A stretch of 64,000 bases of DNA. It comes from Halalkalibacter oceani. GTDB taxonomy: Bacteria > Bacillota > Bacilli > Bacillales > Bacillaceae_D. Below are positions 9,738-23,117 of the stretch, one piece after another. A program made the translations under genes and the position numbers. Within the stretch, counting starts at the first letter, position 1, and each line of letters begins with the position of its first letter. The DNA is taken from assembly GCF_023715605.1 (NCBI RefSeq), contig NZ_JAMBOL010000003.1, positions 1-64,000 on the forward strand, given 5' to 3'. The notes beneath the pieces are model-generated. The model worked only from the letters and a program-made list of their open reading frames with translations, had not been told where the DNA came from and did not search any database.

Positions 9738-10739
9738 TTAGGATGTGACCGTCGTTCTCAGACAAGCCTCTATTTTCTTTTGAATGTCATTCCTATCAAG
9801 CTCTTCTCCAATAAAAAGGAACTCAGAAAATACATCAGATGACCACGACGGCATGTGAAAGGTATGAAGCCGGATCGACGCACCTATCTGGGAGATCTCA
9901 TAGAGTTCCTCGCTGCCTGGGTTATAGCATCTTCCTTTCATTCGGAACACTTCATTTGGAAATTGTTCAAATAAACGTTCTAAATGAGAGAGGTCAATTG
10001 GATACTTGCTTTTATAAACATATGTATCGATTCCATAGTGTCCTAACATCACTAATTTGCTTCTGGACTCAAATAAATTGATTTGGTCATCAAAGAGGGA
10101 AGACACTGAATCAATACGATATGCTGCATTCCTGTTTTCATTAAACCGAAGGAACTCTTCGAAAGTGATGACAGCTGATTGTGGCTGCAAGTTCCTGATA
10201 AAAGAAAAGATCGCACCCGCTTGTTCATAGGATACGCTTTCCGCATGACATATAACAATGGTATCGGCCGCTTCTAATTGATAAATAAGTGCTTCTCCCA
10301 ATGTATAGTTTGAATCGGGTTGGACGGATATTTCATGTTCCGAAAAATAAGAAAACCAGAATTCTCTCGCATCTACAAGATGGATATGAGATTTCAGCTT
10401 TGTATATTTTAATTTAGAGGACCATACTTCTGAAAGAGTTGCTGCTGAAAGGGGGAAGACATCCACTACAATTTCATCGATATGATTTCTTATCTCTTCG
10501 TTCAGAAGCAATGTATGCAAATCATCCATATTGTTTATTTCTATATCATGGACAGCTTCTCCCATTATAGTTGTTAGTGGAAAGAGATCATCAACCTTTT
10601 CGGTTAATTTACTATTGGTTGGCCGGTAAAGTACGTAACCCATTTTTTTTGATTGATTTCTTTCCATTTCTTTTATTAATAAGCCTTTATCCTTTAAAGA
10701 AAAGCCTGTTAATAAAGTGAAAGGTAGTTGTTTTTCCAC
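9738..10739 (-). CDS. COG0523/CobW-like protein lacking GTPase motifs
   Basis: 333 residues. The fold outline follows COG0523 metallochaperones: a LLTGF strand at the N-terminus, an IHLVDAREFW segment in the place of the VVTVVDA strand, and a C-terminal CobW_C-like part (EVFRMKGRCY...SEFLFIGEELDRNDIQKKIEAC) that closely matches the neighbouring GTPases. The Walker A GFLGxGKTT is replaced by GFSLKDKGL, the CxCC metal motif is missing and no NKxD base-recognition motif is visible. It is therefore probably not a GTPase. Start GTG 10739 has AAGGATG upstream. A Zur box lies about 70 bases upstream. It may be a regulatory or scaffold partner of the two intact COG0523 proteins. Confidence 0.65.
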   Translation of the reverse strand: MEKQLPFTLLTGFSLKDKGLLIKEMERNQSKKMGYVLYRPTNSKLTEKVDDLFPLTTIMGEAVHDIEINNMDDLHTLLLNEEIRNHIDEIVVDVFPLSAATLSEVWSSKLKYTKLKSHIHLVDAREFWFSYFSEHEISVQPDSNYTLGEALIYQLEAADTIVICHAESVSYEQAGAIFSFIRNLQPQSAVITFEEFLRFNENRNAAYRIDSVSSLFDDQINLFESRSKLVMLGHYGIDTYVYKSKYPIDLSHLERLFEQFPNEVFRMKGRCYNPGSEELYEISQIGASIRLHTFHMPSWSSDVFSEFLFIGEELDRNDIQKKIEACLRTTVTS

Positions 10740-10807: not shown

Positions 10808-10828
10808 AAATAGTAATTATTACGATTT
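10808..10828. promoter_or_regulatory. Zur box 1
   Basis: Near-palindromic AAATAGTAATTATTACGATT plus T fits the Bacillus Zur consensus (AAATCGTAATnATTACGATTT) with one half-site change. It lies between the COG0523-like gene (minus) and the sufU-like gene (plus). Its surroundings (10801-10855) resemble the hemB promoter region at 22066-22113. Confidence 0.75.
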
Positions 10829-10938
10829 AAAAAATATCATAAAGGAAAGTTGAAATGAAGTAAAGTGAACGGATAAAAAATAGTAACGATTTTTGTTCAA
10901 TTAGACTTATTCAAAAAAAATGTGTATATTAGAAGTAT

Positions 10939-10959
10939 AAATCGTAATGGTTATGATTT
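10939..10959 (+). promoter_or_regulatory. Zur box 2 overlapping the sufU-like start region
   Basis: AAATCGTAATGGTTATGATT plus T, a 21-base palindrome of the Zur type, 10 bases downstream of a TATATT -10-like element. Binding would cover the transcription start. Confidence 0.8.
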
Positions 10960-11423
10960 GTTCTTTTGAAGGAGGGATTCCTATCCTGGACCAGCTATAT
11001 CGGCAACTTGTAATGGATCATTCGAAAAATAGACGAAATCATCGGAAAATAGAAGGAGACAAGGTGCTGCAAAAACATTATAAAAACCCGACCTGCGGTG
11101 ATGTAATGACTCTTTTTATACAGCTGTCTGATAAACGCACAATAGAAGATATTTCGTTTGTTGGGGAAGGGTGCAGTATAAGCATGGCATCAGCATCGAT
11201 GATGACGGGCCTGTTAAAAGGAGCTTCCCTAAAGGAGGCTTCACAATTGCGGCATGCGATGGAAAAAATGATTCGGGAAGGTGATATTCCGGAAGATGTC
11301 GATTTAGGAGATGCCTTAGCGTTGGAAGGTGTGCATAAATTAAAAGCTCGCCACAATTGTGCGTTAATGACTTGGCAGGCTCTTGATCGTACTTTAGATG
11401 ATTATGAGGAGTATAGCAAGTAG
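10947..11423 (+). CDS. SufU-like zinc-dependent Fe-S assembly sulfurtransferase (Zur-regulated paralogue)
   Basis: SufU accepts persulfide from the cysteine desulfurase SufS through a zinc site. The homologous part starts LDQLYRQLVMDHSKNRRN and carries the three cysteine ligands: NPTCGD, EGCSISMASASMM and HNCAL; the aspartate of the first motif is also kept. The family length is about 145 residues. The start is uncertain: the only ATG codons upstream (10947, 10953) are inside the Zur box without a ribosome site, while an excellent AAGGAGG at 10968-10974 precedes in-frame non-standard codons, with CTG 10986 matching the usual N-terminus. I give the longest frame. A zinc enzyme under zinc-starvation control suggests prioritised supply of Fe-S assembly. 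Confidence 0.85.
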   Translation: MVMICSFEGGIPILDQLYRQLVMDHSKNRRNHRKIEGDKVLQKHYKNPTCGDVMTLFIQLSDKRTIEDISFVGEGCSISMASASMMTGLLKGASLKEASQLRHAMEKMIREGDIPEDVDLGDALALEGVHKLKARHNCALMTWQALDRTLDDYEEYSK

Positions 11424-11733: not shown

Positions 11734-11777
11734 ACCTATTGTAACGGTGGGATAGGGGATTGGAGGAAGGAGCATCC

Positions 11778-12752
11778 ATGTTGGACATCCGAAAAGCTGA
11801 TATCTATATACTGACCGGGTTTTTAGGCAGTGGAAAAAGCACTCTGTTAACCAGGCTGTTACAAACAGAAAAAGAAAGGGGGAGACGCGCCGCAGTATTG
11901 ATGAACGAATTGGGCGAAATGAGTATTGATTCCAGTATTGTCCCACCTGGTACCCCATTGCTCGAACTGTTGAATGGCTGTATTTGTTGCACAATAAATG
12001 CTGAATTAAGCTACCAATTAAAGTTGTTGCTGGAAGAACATGAACTGGATGCTATTTATATCGAAGCAACAGGAGCAGCCCATCCGATTGAGGTGATTGA
12101 TGCATGTACCCATCCGATGCTGGCGAATAAGGTGAAAATCAAGGCTGTTATTACGCATGTCGACGTGATGGCGTGGAAATATGGAAAAATGAGTCTCAAA
12201 GTGAAAAAGCTGCTTAAAGAGCAGGTGAAATTTGCTGACATTCTCGTGCTGAACAAAACGGATGAATTGGAAGCCAATGAATTATCATCTTTGATGAAAG
12301 ACATTAAAACGATTAACTCGCAGGCAAAGCTGATTCCTACAACCTTCTCACAAGTCGCCCCTGACCTTTTATATGAGCGGAGCAATATAAGCAGAGGAAC
12401 AGACCAGAATCGCTCTCACGATTCTTCTCATGGAGCACATGTTCATTACGATCTGCATTTGCATACGTTTCATTACCGATTAACAGCTGCCCTTGATCGG
12501 GTCAGCTTCACAAATTGGATAAAAACAATTCCCGGTCAACTGTATCGGGCAAAAGGATTTGTAGCATTTACAGAGACGCCGGGTCTGTTTTTATTCAACT
12601 ATTCTTATGGAGAACCAATCTTCGAACGCGTTCCCGCGCAGAGCTTTGAACCCGTTCTCGTTTTTATCGGGGACGATCTCGATCATCAAAAGATGGAAGC
12701 TGATTTACTCAAATTACAAGCTGAACCTGACTTTTATAACAAGGAGAGATGA
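11778..12752 (+). CDS. COG0523 (CobW-like) GTPase, putative zinc metallochaperone A
   Basis: 324 residues. Walker A GFLGSGKS at 14-21, metal-binding CICC at 68-71, switch II-region IEATGAAHP, guanine-specificity NKTD near 162, a histidine-rich linker (HDSSHGAHVHYDLHLH) and a CobW_C domain (RAKGFVAFTETPGLFLFNYS). COG0523 proteins couple GTP hydrolysis to metal transfer into client enzymes and the Zur-controlled ones act in zinc starvation. ATG 11778 has GGAAGGAG. TGAAG instead of TGLAxP in switch II and the short His linker separate it from its downstream paralogue, so the two may serve different clients. Confidence 0.92.
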   Translation: MLDIRKADIYILTGFLGSGKSTLLTRLLQTEKERGRRAAVLMNELGEMSIDSSIVPPGTPLLELLNGCICCTINAELSYQLKLLLEEHELDAIYIEATGAAHPIEVIDACTHPMLANKVKIKAVITHVDVMAWKYGKMSLKVKKLLKEQVKFADILVLNKTDELEANELSSLMKDIKTINSQAKLIPTTFSQVAPDLLYERSNISRGTDQNRSHDSSHGAHVHYDLHLHTFHYRLTAALDRVSFTNWIKTIPGQLYRAKGFVAFTETPGLFLFNYSYGEPIFERVPAQSFEPVLVFIGDDLDHQKMEADLLKLQAEPDFYNKER

Positions 12753-12755
12753 CAA

Positions 12756-13754
12756 TTGGATATGATCAAACAAGTGCCTGTGACGGTGATAACCGGGTTT
12801 CTCGGAGCGGGCAAGACAACGCTGCTTAATCATCTTCTGACGGCAGATCATGGCAAAAAAATAGCCGTTATTGTAAACGAATTTGGAGAAGTTGGGATTG
12901 ATAATCAATTAGTAGTTGGCGCAGAAGAAGAAATTTTTGAAATGAATAATGGGTGCATTTGTTGTACAGTTCGAGGTGATTTAATCAGAATTCTTACTGA
13001 TCTCATGAAAGCAAAACTAAATCCGCTCGAGCCGAAAGTCGACTTTGACCGGATTGTAATAGAAACAACGGGATTAGCTGAACCCGCTCCCGTTATTCAA
13101 ACCTTTTTTGTCGATGAGGCGATGACGCGATTCTATCAAATCGATTCAGTCGTAACCGTAGTGGATGCCAAACATGCCAATCAGCAGCTTGACCAGGCCC
13201 ATGAAGCACAGGAGCAAGTTGCATTCGCTGACATCATCCTACTGAACAAAGTCGACCTTGTCAGCGCGGAAGAAGTAAATGGACTCGAAAAACGATTACG
13301 TCACATGAATCCATCGGTCAAGATGTTCAAAACAGAAAATTCAAAGATCGAGCTTGATAAGATTTTAGATATCCATACATTTGATCTGGATAAAAAATTA
13401 GAGGTGGATCCGGACTTTTTAACTGATGACCACCATGACCATGAGCATGATGATCAAGTAACGTCTTTCGTATTAAGGGAGGAGCGCCCTTTAAACTTAG
13501 ATAAGCTCGAAAAAATGGTCACTCATTGGATTAATGATTACGGAACGGAGATGTATCGCTACAAAGGCATTTTGAATATAAAAGGAATGACTGAAAGAGT
13601 CGTATTTCAAGGTATCCATATGCTGTTTGCTTCAACAGTCGACCGCGAGTGGACAGATACGGACACAAAGCTCAGTGAAATTGTTGTGATTGGAAAAAAT
13701 TTAGATCAACGCCACTTTCAAACACAGTTTGCAGAGTGTGTGGAAATCGACTGA
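12756..13754 (+). CDS. COG0523 (CobW-like) GTPase, putative zinc metallochaperone B
   Basis: 332 residues with Walker A GFLGAGKT (14-21), CICC (67-70), [16 protein letters not shown], a His/Asp-rich metal-binding stretch ([10 protein letters not shown]) and a CobW_C domain. It is close to the YciC/ZagA-type family of Zur-induced zinc metallochaperones; ZagA delivers zinc to folate synthesis (FolE) in B. subtilis. TTG 12756 has AGGAGAG at 7 bases; an ATG at 12762 is too far from it. It follows metallochaperone A by 3 bases and is followed by zur in one operon. Confidence 0.93.
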
Positions 13755-13771
13755 AGAGAAGGGAGGATCTC

Positions 13772-14179
13772 ATGAATAGTACGACCGCACTGGATATTCT
13801 AGCGAAGAAAGGCTATAAAATCACAGATAAAAGAGAAAAGATAGCGCAAATTTTCTGGAAGAATAATCGCTTTTTATCAGCCAGAGCCGTTCACAATGTC
13901 ATGAAAGTGGATTCTCCCAGTTTAAGTCTTGATACGGTGTATCGAAATATTAGGTTATTTGAAGAGCTCGGCATTTTGGAGGCAACCGAATTAAACAGAG
14001 AAAAGCATTATCGTTTTACATGCACGGATCACCATCATCCGCTGATTTGCATTCATTGCGGCACAGTGAAAAAAATAGATATTTGCCCAATGGATCACTT
14101 GTTTGACTTGCCCGAAGGCTTCCTCGTTACGGGCCATAAATTTGAGATCTATGGCCACTGTAGCGACTGCCATTCATAA
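13772..14179 (+). CDS. zur: Zinc uptake regulator Zur (Fur family)
   Basis: 135 residues. A winged helix (about 10-80; SLSLDTVYRNIRLFEELGILE) is followed by the metal-binding half with HHH at 87-89 and two CxxC pairs, C93/C96 and C130/C133, which form the structural zinc site. The Fur-type protein sits at the end of an operon of zinc metallochaperones and the surroundings carry five Zur-like palindromes, which points to Zur rather than Fur or PerR. ATG 13772 follows GGGAGG; the longer frame overlaps the previous gene. In such operons Zur is self-repressed through the upstream box. Confidence 0.9.
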   Translation: MNSTTALDILAKKGYKITDKREKIAQIFWKNNRFLSARAVHNVMKVDSPSLSLDTVYRNIRLFEELGILEATELNREKHYRFTCTDHHHPLICIHCGTVKKIDICPMDHLFDLPEGFLVTGHKFEIYGHCSDCHS

Positions 14180-15080: not shown

Positions 15081-15085
15081 ATTTT

Positions 15086-15132: not shown

Positions 15133-16719
15133 ATGAAGAGTAAAGGTTACTATTTTGTTTTGATGGCATTTATTTTATTTTTTACAGGAGCCTGTTCCGA
15201 AAAAGAGAATGCAGCAGAAGAGACGGCATTACATGAAGATTCACAGACGATACAGGTTGCGATTGCGACTGACACGGGAGCGGATAAGCTTGATGCCGCT
15301 TCGTATGATGGAGCGATGTCGGCCTATACAGCTATTTATGAACCGTTGGTTGAATATGGACCAAAGGGGGACATACAACCGGCTCTTGCTCAAGCTTGGG
15401 AACTATCTGAAGATGGCAAGCAGTATACTTTTTATTTACGCGAGGATGTTTATTTTTCAGATGGATCGAAAATGGATAGTGACGCTGTGCTCTTTTCGAT
15501 TAACCGCTGGAAAGGAAAACAGGAGCATGATTGGTTAAAAACAGCGTCTACGTTGCAAACTGTCGAAAAAATAGATGATTATACGATCAAGCTTACGTTT
15601 TCAGAACCAAGTGCTGACATTTTAAATGAATTAACTGCTGCCCGTCCTTTACGGATCATGAGCCCAAATGCAGTAGAGCCTGCCGGTGATCCAGATGGAG
15701 AGTTTGTCAACGCAATTGGAACGGGACCGTTTCAAATCGACGATTACCTAAAAGATAAAGAAACAACGTTCATCCCAAATCCAAACTATTGGGGAGAAAA
15801 AGCGCAAATCGAGAAAATGGTCTGGAGGGTCATCCCGGATCCGGAAACTCGGTCCTTAGCCCTGCAGGAAGGCAGTATCCAATTGGCCGGGGGAGAAATG
15901 AGCAAAATCCCGTACCAGGCTTTACGTACTTTTAAAGATGATGATCAGTTCAAGGTCGAGTCTAAGCCCGGAACGATGAACTACTTTCTCGTAATGAACA
16001 ACGGAAGAGAGCCGCTACAGGATGTAAAAGTACGACAAGCCTTAAATTTTGCGATTGATAAAGAAAGCCTTGCGAATGAGTTGCTTGATAAAAATGGAAA
16101 CGCGGCAAAAGGCTTATTTGCCGAAACAGTCCCTTTTGTAAACGAACAGAACAGTCCTGGATACGCTTATGATTTAGATAAGGCAAAAGAGTTGTTGAGA
16201 GAGGCTGGATATGGGGAGGATGACAATCAGCTAAAGCTAAAACTTGTTTTGCAAACAGAAGAATTTCCAGAGTGGAAACAAATTGCTGAAATGATTCAAA
16301 GTGATTTTAATCAGGCTGGAATTGAAGTGACACTGGATAGTATGGAATCGGCAGCTTATTACGATAACCTATGGGAAAAGCAGGACTACGATCTTTTTAT
16401 CTATCGTACATACGCAGACGGGCTGAACCCTCAAGGCTTCCTTGATGCACTTTTTACAATCAATGAACAGGGGACGGGAGTGGGCTTTACTGATCCGACA
16501 CTTTCAGAGCATATTCACGAGGCCGCAAAAGCGCTAAGCGACGAGGATCGCCAAGCTGCCTATAATACAGTGCTATCTTATATGCATGACAATGCCGTAA
16601 CGGTACCTTTGTTCTATCCAAATGAAATTGTGGTCCGTGACGCGGGACTGGAAGGGTTCGGCTGGGGTGCCATTAGTGATCACCCTGTACGATGGAATAA
16701 GCTGAAAAAGGAAAATTAA
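15133..16719 (+). CDS. Solute-binding lipoprotein, Opp/Nik/Cnt family
   Basis: 528 residues. A lipoprotein signal ends at lipobox FTGAC (C21). The mature part is an SBP_bac_5 domain with the typical YEPLVEYGPKGDIQPALAQAWELSEDGKQYTFYLREDVYFSDG start and GTGPF motif. This family binds oligopeptides, nickel-histidine or metallophore complexes (CntA, NikA). Location behind a Zur box favours a zinc complex as cargo. The start has AGGAGG at 8 bases. It is the first of five genes with spacing or overlaps below 10 bases. Confidence 0.9.
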   Translation: MKSKGYYFVLMAFILFFTGACSEKENAAEETALHEDSQTIQVAIATDTGADKLDAASYDGAMSAYTAIYEPLVEYGPKGDIQPALAQAWELSEDGKQYTFYLREDVYFSDGSKMDSDAVLFSINRWKGKQEHDWLKTASTLQTVEKIDDYTIKLTFSEPSADILNELTAARPLRIMSPNAVEPAGDPDGEFVNAIGTGPFQIDDYLKDKETTFIPNPNYWGEKAQIEKMVWRVIPDPETRSLALQEGSIQLAGGEMSKIPYQALRTFKDDDQFKVESKPGTMNYFLVMNNGREPLQDVKVRQALNFAIDKESLANELLDKNGNAAKGLFAETVPFVNEQNSPGYAYDLDKAKELLREAGYGEDDNQLKLKLVLQTEEFPEWKQIAEMIQSDFNQAGIEVTLDSMESAAYYDNLWEKQDYDLFIYRTYADGLNPQGFLDALFTINEQGTGVGFTDPTLSEHIHEAAKALSDEDRQAAYNTVLSYMHDNAVTVPLFYPNEIVVRDAGLEGFGWGAISDHPVRWNKLKKEN

Positions 16720-16722
16720 CAA

Positions 16723-17664
16723 ATGGGCCGCATTATTGCTAGAAGAGTCCCTATTATCATTCTCTCCCTGTTTCTGTTAAGTATGTTTTTGTTTTTTCTT
16801 GTACGCTTCATTCCGGGATCACCAGAAATGGTGATTCTTTTACAGCGTGGGGGATCAGTAAATGAGGAAGAGCTTAACGAAATAAGGAGAGAATTGGGAC
16901 TGGATGCATCCTTGTTTCAGCAATATTGGGAGTGGATAGGAAATTTGGCGCGGCTCGACTTTGGTCTCTCCTATCAATCCGGCCTACCGGTTATGGAGGA
17001 AATTGGCTCCCGATCGGGGCATTCTTTAAGCCTTATTTTGATTTCCTTAATTGGTTCCATTACTGTCGGAATGCTTCTGGCGTTCTTTGCCGCTCTGTAT
17101 AAAGATAGCAAATGGGATGTATGGGTGCGGAACATAGCCATTTTCCTCTCTTCACTTCCTACTTATTTCATCAGTTTATTGCTTGTGCTTTTTTTCTCGA
17201 TTCATTTGAGGCTGTTACCTGTTTTTGGGAATGATTCCTCGGTTCATTTTATTTTGCCTGTTGCTACGATTAGTCTGTCTCTCGTCGCGATGTTTGTTCC
17301 GTTATTCAGGCAAATCTTTGGAGAAGTGATGGGAAGTTTGTATTTTGAAGCGATGAGGGCGAGAGGGGCAAAGCGGCTCAGTTTATATGGCACATCATTA
17401 CTCAAGCCGAGTATCCACGGGATGTTAACAATAATCGCTTCGAGTACCGGTTCACTTTGGGGCGCGATTATCGTCACGGAGAATATCTTTGCCTTACCCG
17501 GGCTTGGCAGTTATATTATTAGCTCGATTTCGGCAAGAGACTACTCAGTTATCATTGGATTTACGATGAGCATGGCGTTTTTTACGATGATCCTTTACTT
17601 GATAATCGACTTGCTGCTATATATGGTCGACCCGAGAAAGGGGATACGGGAAGAAAATGATTAA
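16723..17664 (+). CDS. Importer permease, DppB/NikB/CntB type
   Basis: 313 residues with six transmembrane helices, a conserved FLVRFIPGSPE periplasmic start, an FRQIFGEVMGSLYFEAMRARGAKRLSL EAA-loop for the ATPase and VDPRKGIREEN at the C-terminus. It begins 3 bases after the lipoprotein gene and overlaps the next permease by 8 bases. It forms the membrane channel with the DppC-like subunit. Confidence 0.92.
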   Translation: MGRIIARRVPIIILSLFLLSMFLFFLVRFIPGSPEMVILLQRGGSVNEEELNEIRRELGLDASLFQQYWEWIGNLARLDFGLSYQSGLPVMEEIGSRSGHSLSLILISLIGSITVGMLLAFFAALYKDSKWDVWVRNIAIFLSSLPTYFISLLLVLFFSIHLRLLPVFGNDSSVHFILPVATISLSLVAMFVPLFRQIFGEVMGSLYFEAMRARGAKRLSLYGTSLLKPSIHGMLTIIASSTGSLWGAIIVTENIFALPGLGSYIISSISARDYSVIIGFTMSMAFFTMILYLIIDLLLYMVDPRKGIREEND

Positions 17665-18454
17665 GATAGAGAAATCACGATGGAGGCGGCCGGCCCTTTG
17701 TTGTGCACTATTGCTGATGGCTATTGTGATCGCTATGATCGTCACCCCCTATGATCCTTATCATGTCGATGTTTCAAACAAGCTTCAAAAGCCAAGCTCC
17801 CTTCACTGGTTCGGAACAGATCATCTCGGCCGTGATGTACTGACCAGATTAGTATACGGGGCGCCGTTTACTTTACTTTTTCCTTTTCTTGTCTTAGTCA
17901 TTTCTGCTATCATCGGTAGTCTGTTTGGACTTGTTAGCAGCTATGTAGGAGGGAAGGTGGATAGCGCGATGACTGCTGTGATGGATGCGTTCAGCTCGAT
18001 TCCGAACCTGCTTCTTGCGATTGCGATAACCGGCTTACTTGGTCCCGGCCTACTTAATACACTTCTGGCCACTTCGATTTCCTGGTGGGTTCAATATGCC
18101 CGAATTGTCCGGAGTGTCGGCATTACGATTCGCCGAGAGCCTTATATGCTTGCTGCACAATTAAGTGGCTCGTTTGGAGGCAAGCTGATCTATCGTCATT
18201 TGCTTCCGAATACGAAGCCGCTTGTGCGGGAGCTTTTCTTTTTAGATATGGGGGCTGTTATCCTGCTTATGTCAAGTCTGTCCTTTCTTGGTCTTGGCGC
18301 ACAGCCTCCGTTGGCGGAATGGGGGAGTATGATGTTCGATGGAAAAAGTTATTTACAGATCGCTCCTTGGATTACCCTGATTCCTGCAGCCGCCATTACC
18401 ATTTTCGTCATGCTCTTTTATTTGATCGGAAGGGGGTTACAGTCACGTGAATAG
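17657..18454 (+). CDS. Importer permease, DppC/NikC/CntC type
   Basis: 265 residues. It has the family hallmark HWFGTDHLGRDVLTRLVYG before the transmembrane region, SWWVQYARIVRSVGITIRREPYMLAAQLSGS as EAA loop and FLGLGAQPPLAEWG after it. Overlap with both neighbours shows translational coupling. The GADxPxAEWG-like end is shared with nickel and metallophore systems as well as dipeptide systems, so it does not decide the substrate. Confidence 0.92.
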   Translation: MIKIEKSRWRRPALCCALLLMAIVIAMIVTPYDPYHVDVSNKLQKPSSLHWFGTDHLGRDVLTRLVYGAPFTLLFPFLVLVISAIIGSLFGLVSSYVGGKVDSAMTAVMDAFSSIPNLLLAIAITGLLGPGLLNTLLATSISWWVQYARIVRSVGITIRREPYMLAAQLSGSFGGKLIYRHLLPNTKPLVRELFFLDMGAVILLMSSLSFLGLGAQPPLAEWGSMMFDGKSYLQIAPWITLIPAAAITIFVMLFYLIGRGLQSRE

Positions 18455-19262
18455 CAGCAACGCATTACTGGAAGTCAGCCGTCTTTCCGTTGATTTAGGG
18501 GAAAACCGGTTAATCGATGACGTGACCTTTAACATTAATAAAAATGAGGTTTTCTGTCTGGTTGGAGAATCGGGAAGCGGGAAGTCCCTTACTTCACGGG
18601 CGATTATGGGGCTGCTCGCTAAAAGAAAGTGGAACATTTCAGGAAACGTTCAACTGGAAGCATGCCCTTCAAATTTAACAACATTATCGGAAAAGCATTG
18701 GCAGGACATCCGCGGTAAACAAATCGCGATGATCTATCAGAATCCGACCCAGGCTCTTCATCCCTTCTTAAAGATCAAGTCACAAATGATCCAACAGCTT
18801 AAAAGCACAGGAATGAAAAGCAAGAAAGAAATGAACAACCGCATCCTGCAGCAATTAGATGATATGAACTTTCCTGAGCCCGATCAAATTGCCAACGCCT
18901 ACCCCTGCCAACTAAGCGGAGGGATGAATCAGCGGGTAATGATTGCGCTCGCGCTCTTAAGGAAGCCGCGCCTGTTAATCGCCGATGAACCGACCACTGG
19001 TCTTGATACCATTAACCAGCAGCTTATTATCAACAACTTATTACAGTTGAAGAAAAGGAACGGTATGTCGATCTTGTTTATCACACATGACTTGCGGTTG
19101 GTTAATAAGCTTGCAAATAAAGTAGCTGTCATGAGAAAGGGAAAAATTGTAGAGGCCGGCGCACTGACCAAGATAAAAAACGAACCGGACCATCCCTATA
19201 CAAAAGAATTATGGAAACAAATTCCCAGACTTTATGAAAGAAGGGAAGCCAGTGATCATTGA
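18447..19262 (+). CDS. Importer ATPase 1, DppD/NikD/CntD type
   Basis: 271 residues. Walker A GESGSGKS, Q-loop IYQNPTQAL, signature LSGGMNQRV, Walker B LLIADEPTTGLD and an ITHD switch. The C-terminal stretch HPYTKELWKQIPRL is the shortened oligopeptide-ATPase tail without the usual iron-sulfur cysteines seen in some Opp ATPases. It starts at GTG 18447 inside the end of the permease gene. Confidence 0.92.
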   Translation: MNSSNALLEVSRLSVDLGENRLIDDVTFNINKNEVFCLVGESGSGKSLTSRAIMGLLAKRKWNISGNVQLEACPSNLTTLSEKHWQDIRGKQIAMIYQNPTQALHPFLKIKSQMIQQLKSTGMKSKKEMNNRILQQLDDMNFPEPDQIANAYPCQLSGGMNQRVMIALALLRKPRLLIADEPTTGLDTINQQLIINNLLQLKKRNGMSILFITHDLRLVNKLANKVAVMRKGKIVEAGALTKIKNEPDHPYTKELWKQIPRLYERREASDH

Positions 19263-19995
19263 AGCGAAAAATTTGACGGCAGCCTATCAAAAAAAGAAAG
19301 TGCTGCACGATCTCTCTTTCACCTTGAAAAAAGGCGAGAAGCTCGGAATCGTTGGAGAATCAGGAAGTGGAAAAAGTACACTGACACGTGTCTTATCAGG
19401 GTTTCACCCTACAATAAAAGGAGAGCTGTCCATCCGAGAAAGACCCGTTCAAGCGACAGTTAAAGATCGAAGATGGTTGTGCAAGCTTGTTCAAGTAGTA
19501 TTTCAAGATCCTTTTTCCTCCTTGGATCCACAGCAAACGGTCCAACAAGTATTAGAGGAACCACTGCTTAATTTCTTCACCTTGACGAAAGAAGAGAGAA
19601 ACCAACAATTGTTGGAAATAGTAGAGGAAGTCAATTTAGAAAAGGATCTGTTAAAACAAAAAAGCAGGACGGTAAGCGGCGGCCAGGCACAGCGAATTTG
19701 CATAGCCCGCGCTTTGCTTGCCAGACCGGACATTTTAATTTGCGATGAACCTGTAACAAGCCTCGATATGATGACGCAAATAAAGATCCTAAATTTATTA
19801 AAAAAGATCGTTACGGAAAAGCAGCTGTCCATTGTATTTGTCTCCCATGATATTTCCTTAGTATTTGAATTGTGTGATACGGTTTTAGTGCTGAAGGACG
19901 GTAAAAAAATGGACTTCTTTAAAGCCGCCGATTGGCACCGGCCAGAACGAAGCAGCTATACAAATAAATTAATTCATTCAGTCCATTTAAAGTAA
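19252..19995 (+). CDS. Importer ATPase 2, DppF/NikE/CntF type
   Basis: 247 residues from GTG 19252, chosen because GAAGGGA lies 5-6 bases upstream; an ATG at 19234 inside the previous gene is an alternative. Walker A GESGSGKST, Q-loop VFQDPFSSLDP, signature VSGGQAQRI, Walker B ILICDEPVTSLD and SHD switch. At under 250 residues it lacks the long C-terminal peptide-transporter extension, as in NikE and CntF. It completes the five-gene importer. Confidence 0.92.
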   Translation: MIIEAKNLTAAYQKKKVLHDLSFTLKKGEKLGIVGESGSGKSTLTRVLSGFHPTIKGELSIRERPVQATVKDRRWLCKLVQVVFQDPFSSLDPQQTVQQVLEEPLLNFFTLTKEERNQQLLEIVEEVNLEKDLLKQKSRTVSGGQAQRICIARALLARPDILICDEPVTSLDMMTQIKILNLLKKIVTEKQLSIVFVSHDISLVFELCDTVLVLKDGKKMDFFKAADWHRPERSSYTNKLIHSVHLK

Positions 19996-22071: not shown

Positions 22072-22092
22072 AAATAGTAATCATTACGATTT
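22072..22092 (+). promoter_or_regulatory. Zur box 5 upstream of hemB
   Basis: AAATAGTAATCATTACGATT plus T. The inner TAATCATTA is perfectly symmetric. It differs from Zur box 1 by one base and shares the downstream context ATAAAGGAAAGT. Confidence 0.82.
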
Positions 22093-22127: not shown

Positions 22128-23117
22128 TTGAATCAAATTCTTTCATTTAAACGTCATCGCAGATTACGTTCATCGACATTTCTGAGAAATTTAGTGCAGG
22201 AGACCAGGCTTAGTACGGCGGATTTAATTTTTCCTCTTTTTGTACAAGAGGGGGTCAGCTTGAGAACAGAAGTACCTTCGATGCCTGGTGTGTACCAGCT
22301 GACAATCGATTTATTAGAACAGGAAGTGAGGGAGTTAAAACAACTGGGATTGAAAGCACTCCTTCTTTTTGGCATTCCAAGCTGGAAAGATGACCTCGCA
22401 ACTTCAGCGTATACAAAAGATGGAATTGTCCAACGAGCTATTCGACAAATAAAAGCTTTATATCCTGAATTGGTGGTTATTACGGATACATGCATTTGCC
22501 ACTACCAAACAGATGGACATTGTGGTATACCGGTTAACGGCAGAATCGATAACGATAAGTCATTAAACATTCATGCAAAAGTGGCCTTGTCACAAGCTGA
22601 GGCCGGGGCTGATATTTTAGCACCGTCAAGTATGATGGATGGGTTTGTCGCGTATATCCGTCATGCGTTGGATGAGCATGGTTACGAGAATGTTCCTATC
22701 ATGTCGTATGGAGTGAAGTATGCTTCAAGTTATTATGGACCTTTTCATGATGCAGCGGATAATTCACCAGCTTTTGGTGATCGGCGCACGTATCAGATGG
22801 ATCCGGCCAATCGTTTAGAGGCTTTTCGCGAAGCACAGTCAGATGTTGAAGAGGGGGCAGATTTTTTAATTATTAAGCCGGGATTTCCATATTTGGATAT
22901 TATCAGAGATATGCGCAATTCGTTCCATATTCCGCTCATCTCTTATCAAGTAAGCGGGGAGTATGCCCAAATAAAGGCTGCCGCGCAAAATGGTTGGATA
23001 GACGAAAGAAGCACTGTATTAGAAAGCATGATTTCAATGAAGCGGGCCGGTGCTGACCTTATTGTGACATACTTTGCAAAGGATATCGCAAGATTTCTTA
23101 TGGAGGAGAAAGAGTAA
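22128..23117 (+). CDS. hemB: Delta-aminolevulinic acid dehydratase (porphobilinogen synthase), zinc type
   Basis: 329 residues, normal length. HemB condenses two 5-aminolevulinates to porphobilinogen in heme synthesis. The catalytic zinc triad is present: C122, C124 and C132 in [14 protein letters not shown], which Mg-type enzymes lack. The lysine regions [15 protein letters not shown] and [13 protein letters not shown] are conserved. TTG 22128 follows AAAGTGGTG. No other heme genes are nearby, so this is likely an extra, Zur-controlled copy coupled to yidD by a one-base overlap of stop and start. Retention of the zinc ligands argues against a zinc-sparing substitute. Confidence 0.95.

Follow-up and report, generated by a model that had tools for sequence, protein, structure and literature searches.

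The gene at positions 9738–10739 on the minus strand of the window (the whole stretch of 64,000 nucleotides analyzed here), which we call psi, belongs to a family of COG0523-derived proteins whose consistent partner is rpsN2 and not the two neighboring COG0523 genes. We propose that psi is a zinc-starvation pseudo-GTPase that arose from a ZigA/ZagA-type protein, is tied to zinc-free ribosomes, and acts on 30S subunits containing RpsN2, a reading to which we give a probability of about one half. The gene and the parts of its product discussed below are the following.

9738..10739, minus strand: psi, COG0523-derived pseudo-GTPase of 333 aa (ORF, Pfam CobW_C, 18-member family)
9759..10031, minus strand: CobW_C domain of psi (Pfam)
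10335..10361, minus strand: FWFSYFSEH loop of psi (alignment)
10380..10388, minus strand: HxH of psi, H118 and H120 (alignment)
10548..10550, minus strand: His64 of psi, near the lost CxCC (alignment)
10683..10709, minus strand: degenerate P-loop TGFSLKDKG, psi residues 11–19 (alignment)

Motifs of the psi protein

The ORF has 333 codons and starts with GTG. Its CobW_C domain was recognized by Pfam with 53.5 bits (cut-off 22), and all 15 psi members of the scanned set matched the same domain. The PF02492 nucleotide-binding domain scored 16.3 bits in the window protein, under the cut-off of 20.7, and was matched at E ≤ 0.01 by 5 of the 15. When the protein was aligned with intact COG0523 proteins, the Walker A position read TGFSLKDKGL, in which GFSLKDKG fails the consensus G-x4-G-K-[ST], the CxCC position read -AVHDIEINN, and the NKxD position read DTIVICHAESVS (ICHAES). 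The first-pass annotation had described a protein that keeps CobW_C but lacks Walker A, CxCC, and NKxD, a description that Pfam, the alignment, and a motif scan all bear out.

The scan covered the 18 intact psi members that were found, window included; none has CxCC, CxxC, or NKxD, and five (5/18) formally fit the Walker A consensus. Four of the 18 branch early (L051/L061, L052/L062, L053/L063, and L070/L078); they keep Walker A, and NKxN or NQxN replaces their NKxD. Walker A has been lost in 13 of the 14 derived members, the window protein among them, the exception being L050/L060, which still formally fits G-x4-G-K-T. As the early four are without CxCC and NKxD yet keep Walker A, loss of the metal motif and of the NKxD Asp seems to have preceded that of the P-loop.

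Two residues of the former P-loop, G12 and K18, do not vary among the 18 intact homologues, and the window protein may therefore still bind phosphate. This loop, and the formal fit of L050/L060, would agree with a psi that keeps a cryptic nucleotide-dependent activity and works as a divergent metallochaperone. However, NKxD is gone throughout the family, CxCC occurs in no member, and the Walker B Glu is replaced in every derived member (by Asp in 13 of the 14 and by Thr in one), and we consider such an activity very unlikely.

Position 64 is His in 13/14 derived members and in one of the four early ones, while H118 and H120 are found in 14/14 derived members, in 0/4 early members, and in 0/3 aligned ZagA-type proteins. 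Since H64 lies at or near the lost CxCC, these three residues could form a candidate His site that was swapped in for the Cys site, in which case psi would be a zinc sensor or buffer working independently of the ribosome. This seems distinctly improbable to us: the four early members have neither the HxH nor CxCC but show the same linkage to rpsN2, which excludes a His metal site as the founding function of the family. Three residues of the FW loop, F127, W128, and S133, are invariant in the 18 psi proteins and common to the three aligned ZagA-type proteins. The psi proteins are acidic (pI 4.7–5.8 across 16 members) and therefore give no electrostatic hint of RNA binding.

Predicted fold

An AlphaFold2 model of psi, built from 15 family sequences that all lack CxCC and NKxD, had a pLDDT of 81.2 and a pTM of 0.82. 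The best solved structures matching it were three YjiA entries, whose TM-scores were just 0.40–0.42 (Foldseek E 6.8e-15 to 9.9e-14). Structural alignment with YjiA gave Z 13.6–14.1 over 278 residues with an rmsd of 7.5–8.1, and HypB came a close second (Z 12.9 and 12.8), over the first domain only. As the TM-scores are low and the rmsd is high, the two domains of psi are probably placed otherwise in the model than in YjiA. A phmmer search of the PDB sequences with psi returned no COG0523 protein (best E 0.014), and the profile made from the psi alignment recovered YjiA. The two-domain COG0523 fold of psi is thus a predicted rather than a solved one.

Distribution, descent, and selection

Four of the 22 psi copies found are broken (genomes G021, G023, G024, and G081; loci L042, L043/L137, L044, and L058); some of these are possibly assembly errors, the genomes being drafts and G021 only 91% complete. 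The distribution is patchy, with homologues at E ≤ 1e-15 in 13 of the 397 genomes sampled from the order. Nine genomes besides the window's had a psi-type match in a family sample of 41, and six of the nine copies were intact. Among 398 genomes of the class (profile, E ≤ 1e-25), psi-type proteins were found in the window genome, in one genome of the same genus, and in G579, which comes from another order; the remaining matches were open frames of 375–474 aa, and the seven of them that were fetched are ZagA-type.

A scan of named genomes with the psi alignment profile gave nine loci, eight of them intact, in Halalkalibacter, Alkalihalobacillus, Halalkalibacterium, Evansella, and one unclassified Bacillus. 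Six of the eight intact loci lie in genomes already present in the samples and two, both Evansella, are new. A single-sequence psi scan of the named genomes found nothing, and tblastn with psi against plasmids gave 11 records, none covering 80% of psi. Several host names suggest alkaliphiles, going by the names alone.

A maximum-likelihood tree was built from 45 COG0523-like proteins, and in it 16 psi rows (some of them near-copies, and without the later-found L135 and L136) made up one side of a 100/100 branch. In a second tree from which the derived members were left out, the four early psi rows grouped at 100/99 and fell inside the ZagA rows under a midpoint root that serves drawing only. 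Long-branch warnings concerned the cobW1-type rows in both trees and two early psi rows in the second. Descent of psi from a ZagA/ZigA-type COG0523 GTPase is likely, given this placement of the early members in the one midpoint-rooted tree, but not proven, in view of the nature of the root and the length of two early rows. The psi proteins measure 333–364 aa, compared with about 370–410 aa for the ZagA-type rows.

In the three closest psi pairs, dN/dS was 0.22, 0.47, and 0.29, and psi is under purifying selection in these close pairs of relatives. For the window copy dN/dS is uninformative, since it shares 48% identity with its nearest relative and dS, at 2.2, is saturated. Its end branch is 0.72 changes per site long, and the frame has stayed open along it.

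Linkage to rpsN2 and predicted Zur control

Leaving the window aside, psi is intact at 17 loci (L036–L041, L055–L057, L059–L063, L078, L135, and L136), and at every one of them it is immediately preceded by rpsN2 in the same orientation. The psi of Halalkalibacterium halodurans (L133) is the one at L041. Its product in these relatives is an 89-aa zinc-free S14 paralogue. The gap between the two genes is 4–99 nt across the 17 loci; the first start codon of psi at L056 overlaps with rpsN2, and a gap of 37 nt results if the start corresponding to that of L057 is taken. All 17 loci have a Zur-box-like palindrome in the 200 nt before rpsN2, scoring at least 16/20 at 16 loci and 15/20 at L062. These boxes were scored over 20 positions of a Bacillus consensus, and at the threshold of 16/20, base-shuffled copies of the 19 scanned stretches gave 0.0–0.2 hits each. 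In the relatives, rpsN2 and psi thus form an apparent operon, and psi is predicted to be under Zur control.

The two genes also occur together across genomes. In the order sample, rpsN2 was present in 12 of the 13 psi genomes vs 175 of 397 overall (Fisher p 3e-4, kinship uncorrected), at a strict threshold of E ≤ 1e-30 that may miss some copies. The sole psi genome of this sample without rpsN2, G024, carries only a C-terminal psi fragment. Likewise, rpsN2 was not detected in two of the four genomes with a broken psi vs 0/16 with an intact one (Fisher p 0.03, kinship uncorrected). The broken copies of G023 and G081 follow rpsN2 and those of G021 and G024 do not; a genome search gave no rpsN2 match at all in the latter two.

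Conversely, 163 of the 175 rpsN2 genomes of the order sample have no psi match, which means that psi is not generally required. Among 50 fetched rpsN2 loci, those without psi have a ZagA-type gene, unrelated genes, or nothing recognized downstream. With L091 left out of these 50, the RpsN2 motif LRKF[KR]L[SC]RI was found in 18/18 psi genomes vs 6 of 33 others, the 33 being the best matches to the window's own RpsN2, three of the six motif carriers belonging to the same genus, and the 89-column tree being poorly resolved; this hints at an RpsN2 subtype tied to psi genomes.

Other genes were seen beside those for ribosomal proteins. Elsewhere in the Bacillales, the genes downstream of rpsN2 encode a protein of 115–129 aa of one and the same type (L099, L105, L106, and L108) and/or a protein with a 'GGGIHG' motif (L085, L090, L105, and L108), which we take to be of the FAD type, and either could form another zinc-starvation pair with rpsN2. 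On the Streptomyces plasmid NZ_CP038146.1 (L138, 11809–13161), a 6-nt gap separates rpmF (L32) from a downstream gene for an intact ZigA-type GTPase, which makes another ribosomal-protein/COG0523 pair.

The psi locus in the window

The features upstream of psi in the window are the following.

10808..10828, minus strand: Zur box of psi (19/20 positions of the Bacillus consensus)
10836..10864, minus strand: promoter-like TTTACT-17-TATGAT, just upstream of the psi Zur box (sequence)
10939..10959, plus strand: Zur box of the divergent sufU-like gene (sequence)
10947..11423, plus strand: SufU paralogue, divergent from psi (TIGR01994, 168 bits)
11760..12752, plus strand: cobW1, COG0523 GTPase with intact Walker A, CxCC, and NKxD (Pfam, alignment)
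12756..13754, plus strand: cobW2, COG0523 GTPase with all three motifs intact (Pfam, alignment)

Here psi stands alone, divergent from the sufU-like gene and with no rpsN2 adjacent to it. The rpsN2 of this genome is on another contig, where a ZagA-type GTPase gene with an intact CxCC follows about 308 bp downstream, an arrangement that counts against the ribosomal reading. The layout of promoter-like site and Zur box in front of the window psi matches that of the rpsN2 promoters of relatives and is unlike the stretches upstream of the sufU-like and cobW1 genes of the window. When the interval between Zur box and psi was aligned to six relatives in search of a leftover of rpsN2, 0, 20, 0, 5, 1, and 16 of 300 shuffled middles scored at least as high as the observed one, and we claim no such leftover. 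The simplest history would be that the window psi lost an rpsN2 that formerly lay between the promoter and psi.

The first-pass annotation had seen in psi a dedicated pseudo-GTPase that regulates or bridges the products of cobW1 and cobW2. The first half of this idea is supported: structure prediction found a CobW-like fold (AlphaFold2, YjiA match), which leaves the pseudo-GTPase reading unrefuted, and the relatives are under purifying selection. The losses are also clade-wide, CxCC and NKxD being gone from all members over several genera, though Walker A is not among the losses in the four early ones. The second half is not supported by the gene neighborhoods, as both window-type neighbors are present at just 2 of the 17 other loci vs 17/17 for rpsN2, and 6 of the 17 fetched stretches (9–19 kb) are without any other COG0523 gene.

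The same counts bear on a more general form of the idea, in which psi, a dead relative, would be the regulatory partner of an active COG0523 GTPase of the ZagA or cobW1/cobW2 type and tune zinc delivery through mixed oligomers. The two-domain body kept in the psi model and the FW loop held in common with ZagA would suit such a partner, as would the further COG0523 genes that 11 of the 17 fetched stretches contain and the ZagA-type gene adjoining rpsN2 in the window genome. However, psi tracks rpsN2 in the order sample, and we think a partnership of this kind unlikely.

The isolated position of the window copy and its uninformative dN/dS might also suggest that psi is a functionless, decaying duplicate of a COG0523 GTPase, and the broken copies and patchy occurrence of the family point the same way. 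Against this, specific residues are conserved clade-wide over several genera, dN/dS is 0.22–0.47 in the closest pairs of relatives, and the window copy has kept its open frame over a long branch together with its Zur box and promoter-like site. With the same losses shared across several genera and purifying selection acting in the relatives, a decayed copy is disfavored, and we hold this explanation to be most improbable.

Several observations were made on the genes around psi. SufU copies 69–78% identical to that of the window lie near psi in L055, L061, L062, and L063; a zinc-regulated second SufU is unexpected, because SufU needs zinc. A gene for a Fur-family regulator (13736–14179, plus strand) directly follows cobW2, the listed ORF overlapping the cobW2 end, and may encode an additional zinc regulator for the island. 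At 15133–19995, a family-5 solute-binding protein gene is followed by apparent permease genes, with a weak Zur-like box at 15085. In L037, L038, L056, and L057, a binding-protein gene whose product is 27–30% identical starts divergently from the rpsN2-psi pair, and this system perhaps serves a zinc-chelate. Finally, a strong Zur-box-like palindrome (19/20) at 22072–22092 stands shortly before an ORF at 22128–23117 (plus strand), which is likely a further Zur target.

Proposed role of psi

In Bacillus subtilis, RpsN2 replaces the zinc-binding S14 in new 30S subunits. When zinc falls, Zur would leave its box and psi would be made, in the relatives together with RpsN2 from the apparent operon. 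With its two-domain COG0523 body kept and GTP hydrolysis presumably lost, psi would probably be a binding adaptor and not an enzyme, and would most likely engage 30S subunits or ribosomes that carry RpsN2. There it could act in the manner of mycobacterial Mrf and recruit a hibernation factor, or it could escort RpsN2 during 30S assembly; we regard the two as about equally likely. That psi works like Mrf is something we infer by analogy.

A further-reaching version would be that zinc-starved Bacillota, independently of Mrf, evolved a catalytically dead COG0523 GTPase of their own, which binds RpsN2 ribosomes and controls their hibernation or assembly, and that in the derived lineage the Cys switch gave way to a His site through which zinc, once it is available again, releases the protein. 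This version is speculative, and we would not expect it to hold in full.

Zinc-free spare ribosomal proteins are widespread, and the ribosomes built with them may need helper proteins outside mycobacteria too. The rpsN2-tied psi family would offer a concrete, testable Bacillota counterpart to Mrf, with living intermediates in which the metal motif is gone and the GTP-binding P-loop is still there. Zinc GTPases may have been converted repeatedly into non-catalytic partners of spare ribosomes. A literature search for the psi family among open-licence papers found no title.

Comparison with known systems

The closest functional parallel of psi, by analogy, is mycobacterial Mrf (MSMEG_6069, Rv0106; NF047431). 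Like psi, it is COG0523-like, and a passage of PMC2770081 describes Rv0106 as resembling COG0523 yet 'missing both GTPase motifs'. NCBIfam labels the Mrf family (NF047431) as GTPase, and the motif loss on the Mrf side is therefore documented for Rv0106 only. According to a part of PMC7174638, MSMEG_6069, a relative of Rv0106, belongs in M. smegmatis to a Zur-controlled cluster with zinc-free S18, S14, L33, L28, and L31. For psi, the corresponding features are a predicted Zur box and rpsN2 at 17/17 other loci, and the box only for the window copy. Mrf is described in a part of PMC13418864 as recruiting Mpy to zinc-free ribosomes and as having a zinc-binding CXXC that governs its stability, whereas psi has no CxxC in any of the 18 members. 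Unlike Mrf, psi is paired with rpsN2 in the loci seen, and its 12.8 bits, compared with a cut-off of 375, place it outside NF047431 by score.

The ZagA/YciC and ZigA proteins (NF038288), which are Zur-controlled zinc metallochaperone GTPases, are nearer to psi than Mrf by profile: at E ≤ 1, ZigA was matched by 15/15 scanned psi members and Mrf by 10/15. The window psi reached 41.1 bits with a cut-off of 600, which the motif-complete ZagA-type proteins of the window genome, with 532 and 535, do not reach either. The FW loop is shared with psi, and some rpsN2 genes have a ZagA-type gene behind them; in contrast to these proteins, psi lacks CxCC and NKxD, mostly lacks Walker A, and is shorter. 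Since its profile matches are nearer to ZigA than to Mrf, psi is suggested to originate from the ZigA/ZagA line separately from Mrf, as judged by profile scores, the trees holding no Mrf sequence. Among the plasmid matches listed (60 of 2120 and 60 of 1733 records), there was none with the name Mrf and none from Mycobacterium, and the Streptomyces plasmid match examined is ZigA-type. We read psi as an Mrf-like arrangement in the Bacillota, in an apparently independent lineage with evolutionary intermediates.

Structurally, the best match to the psi model over both domains is YjiA (PDB 1nij, 4ixm, and 4ixn), which differs from psi in being a zinc-binding GTPase and shares 16–18% identity with it.
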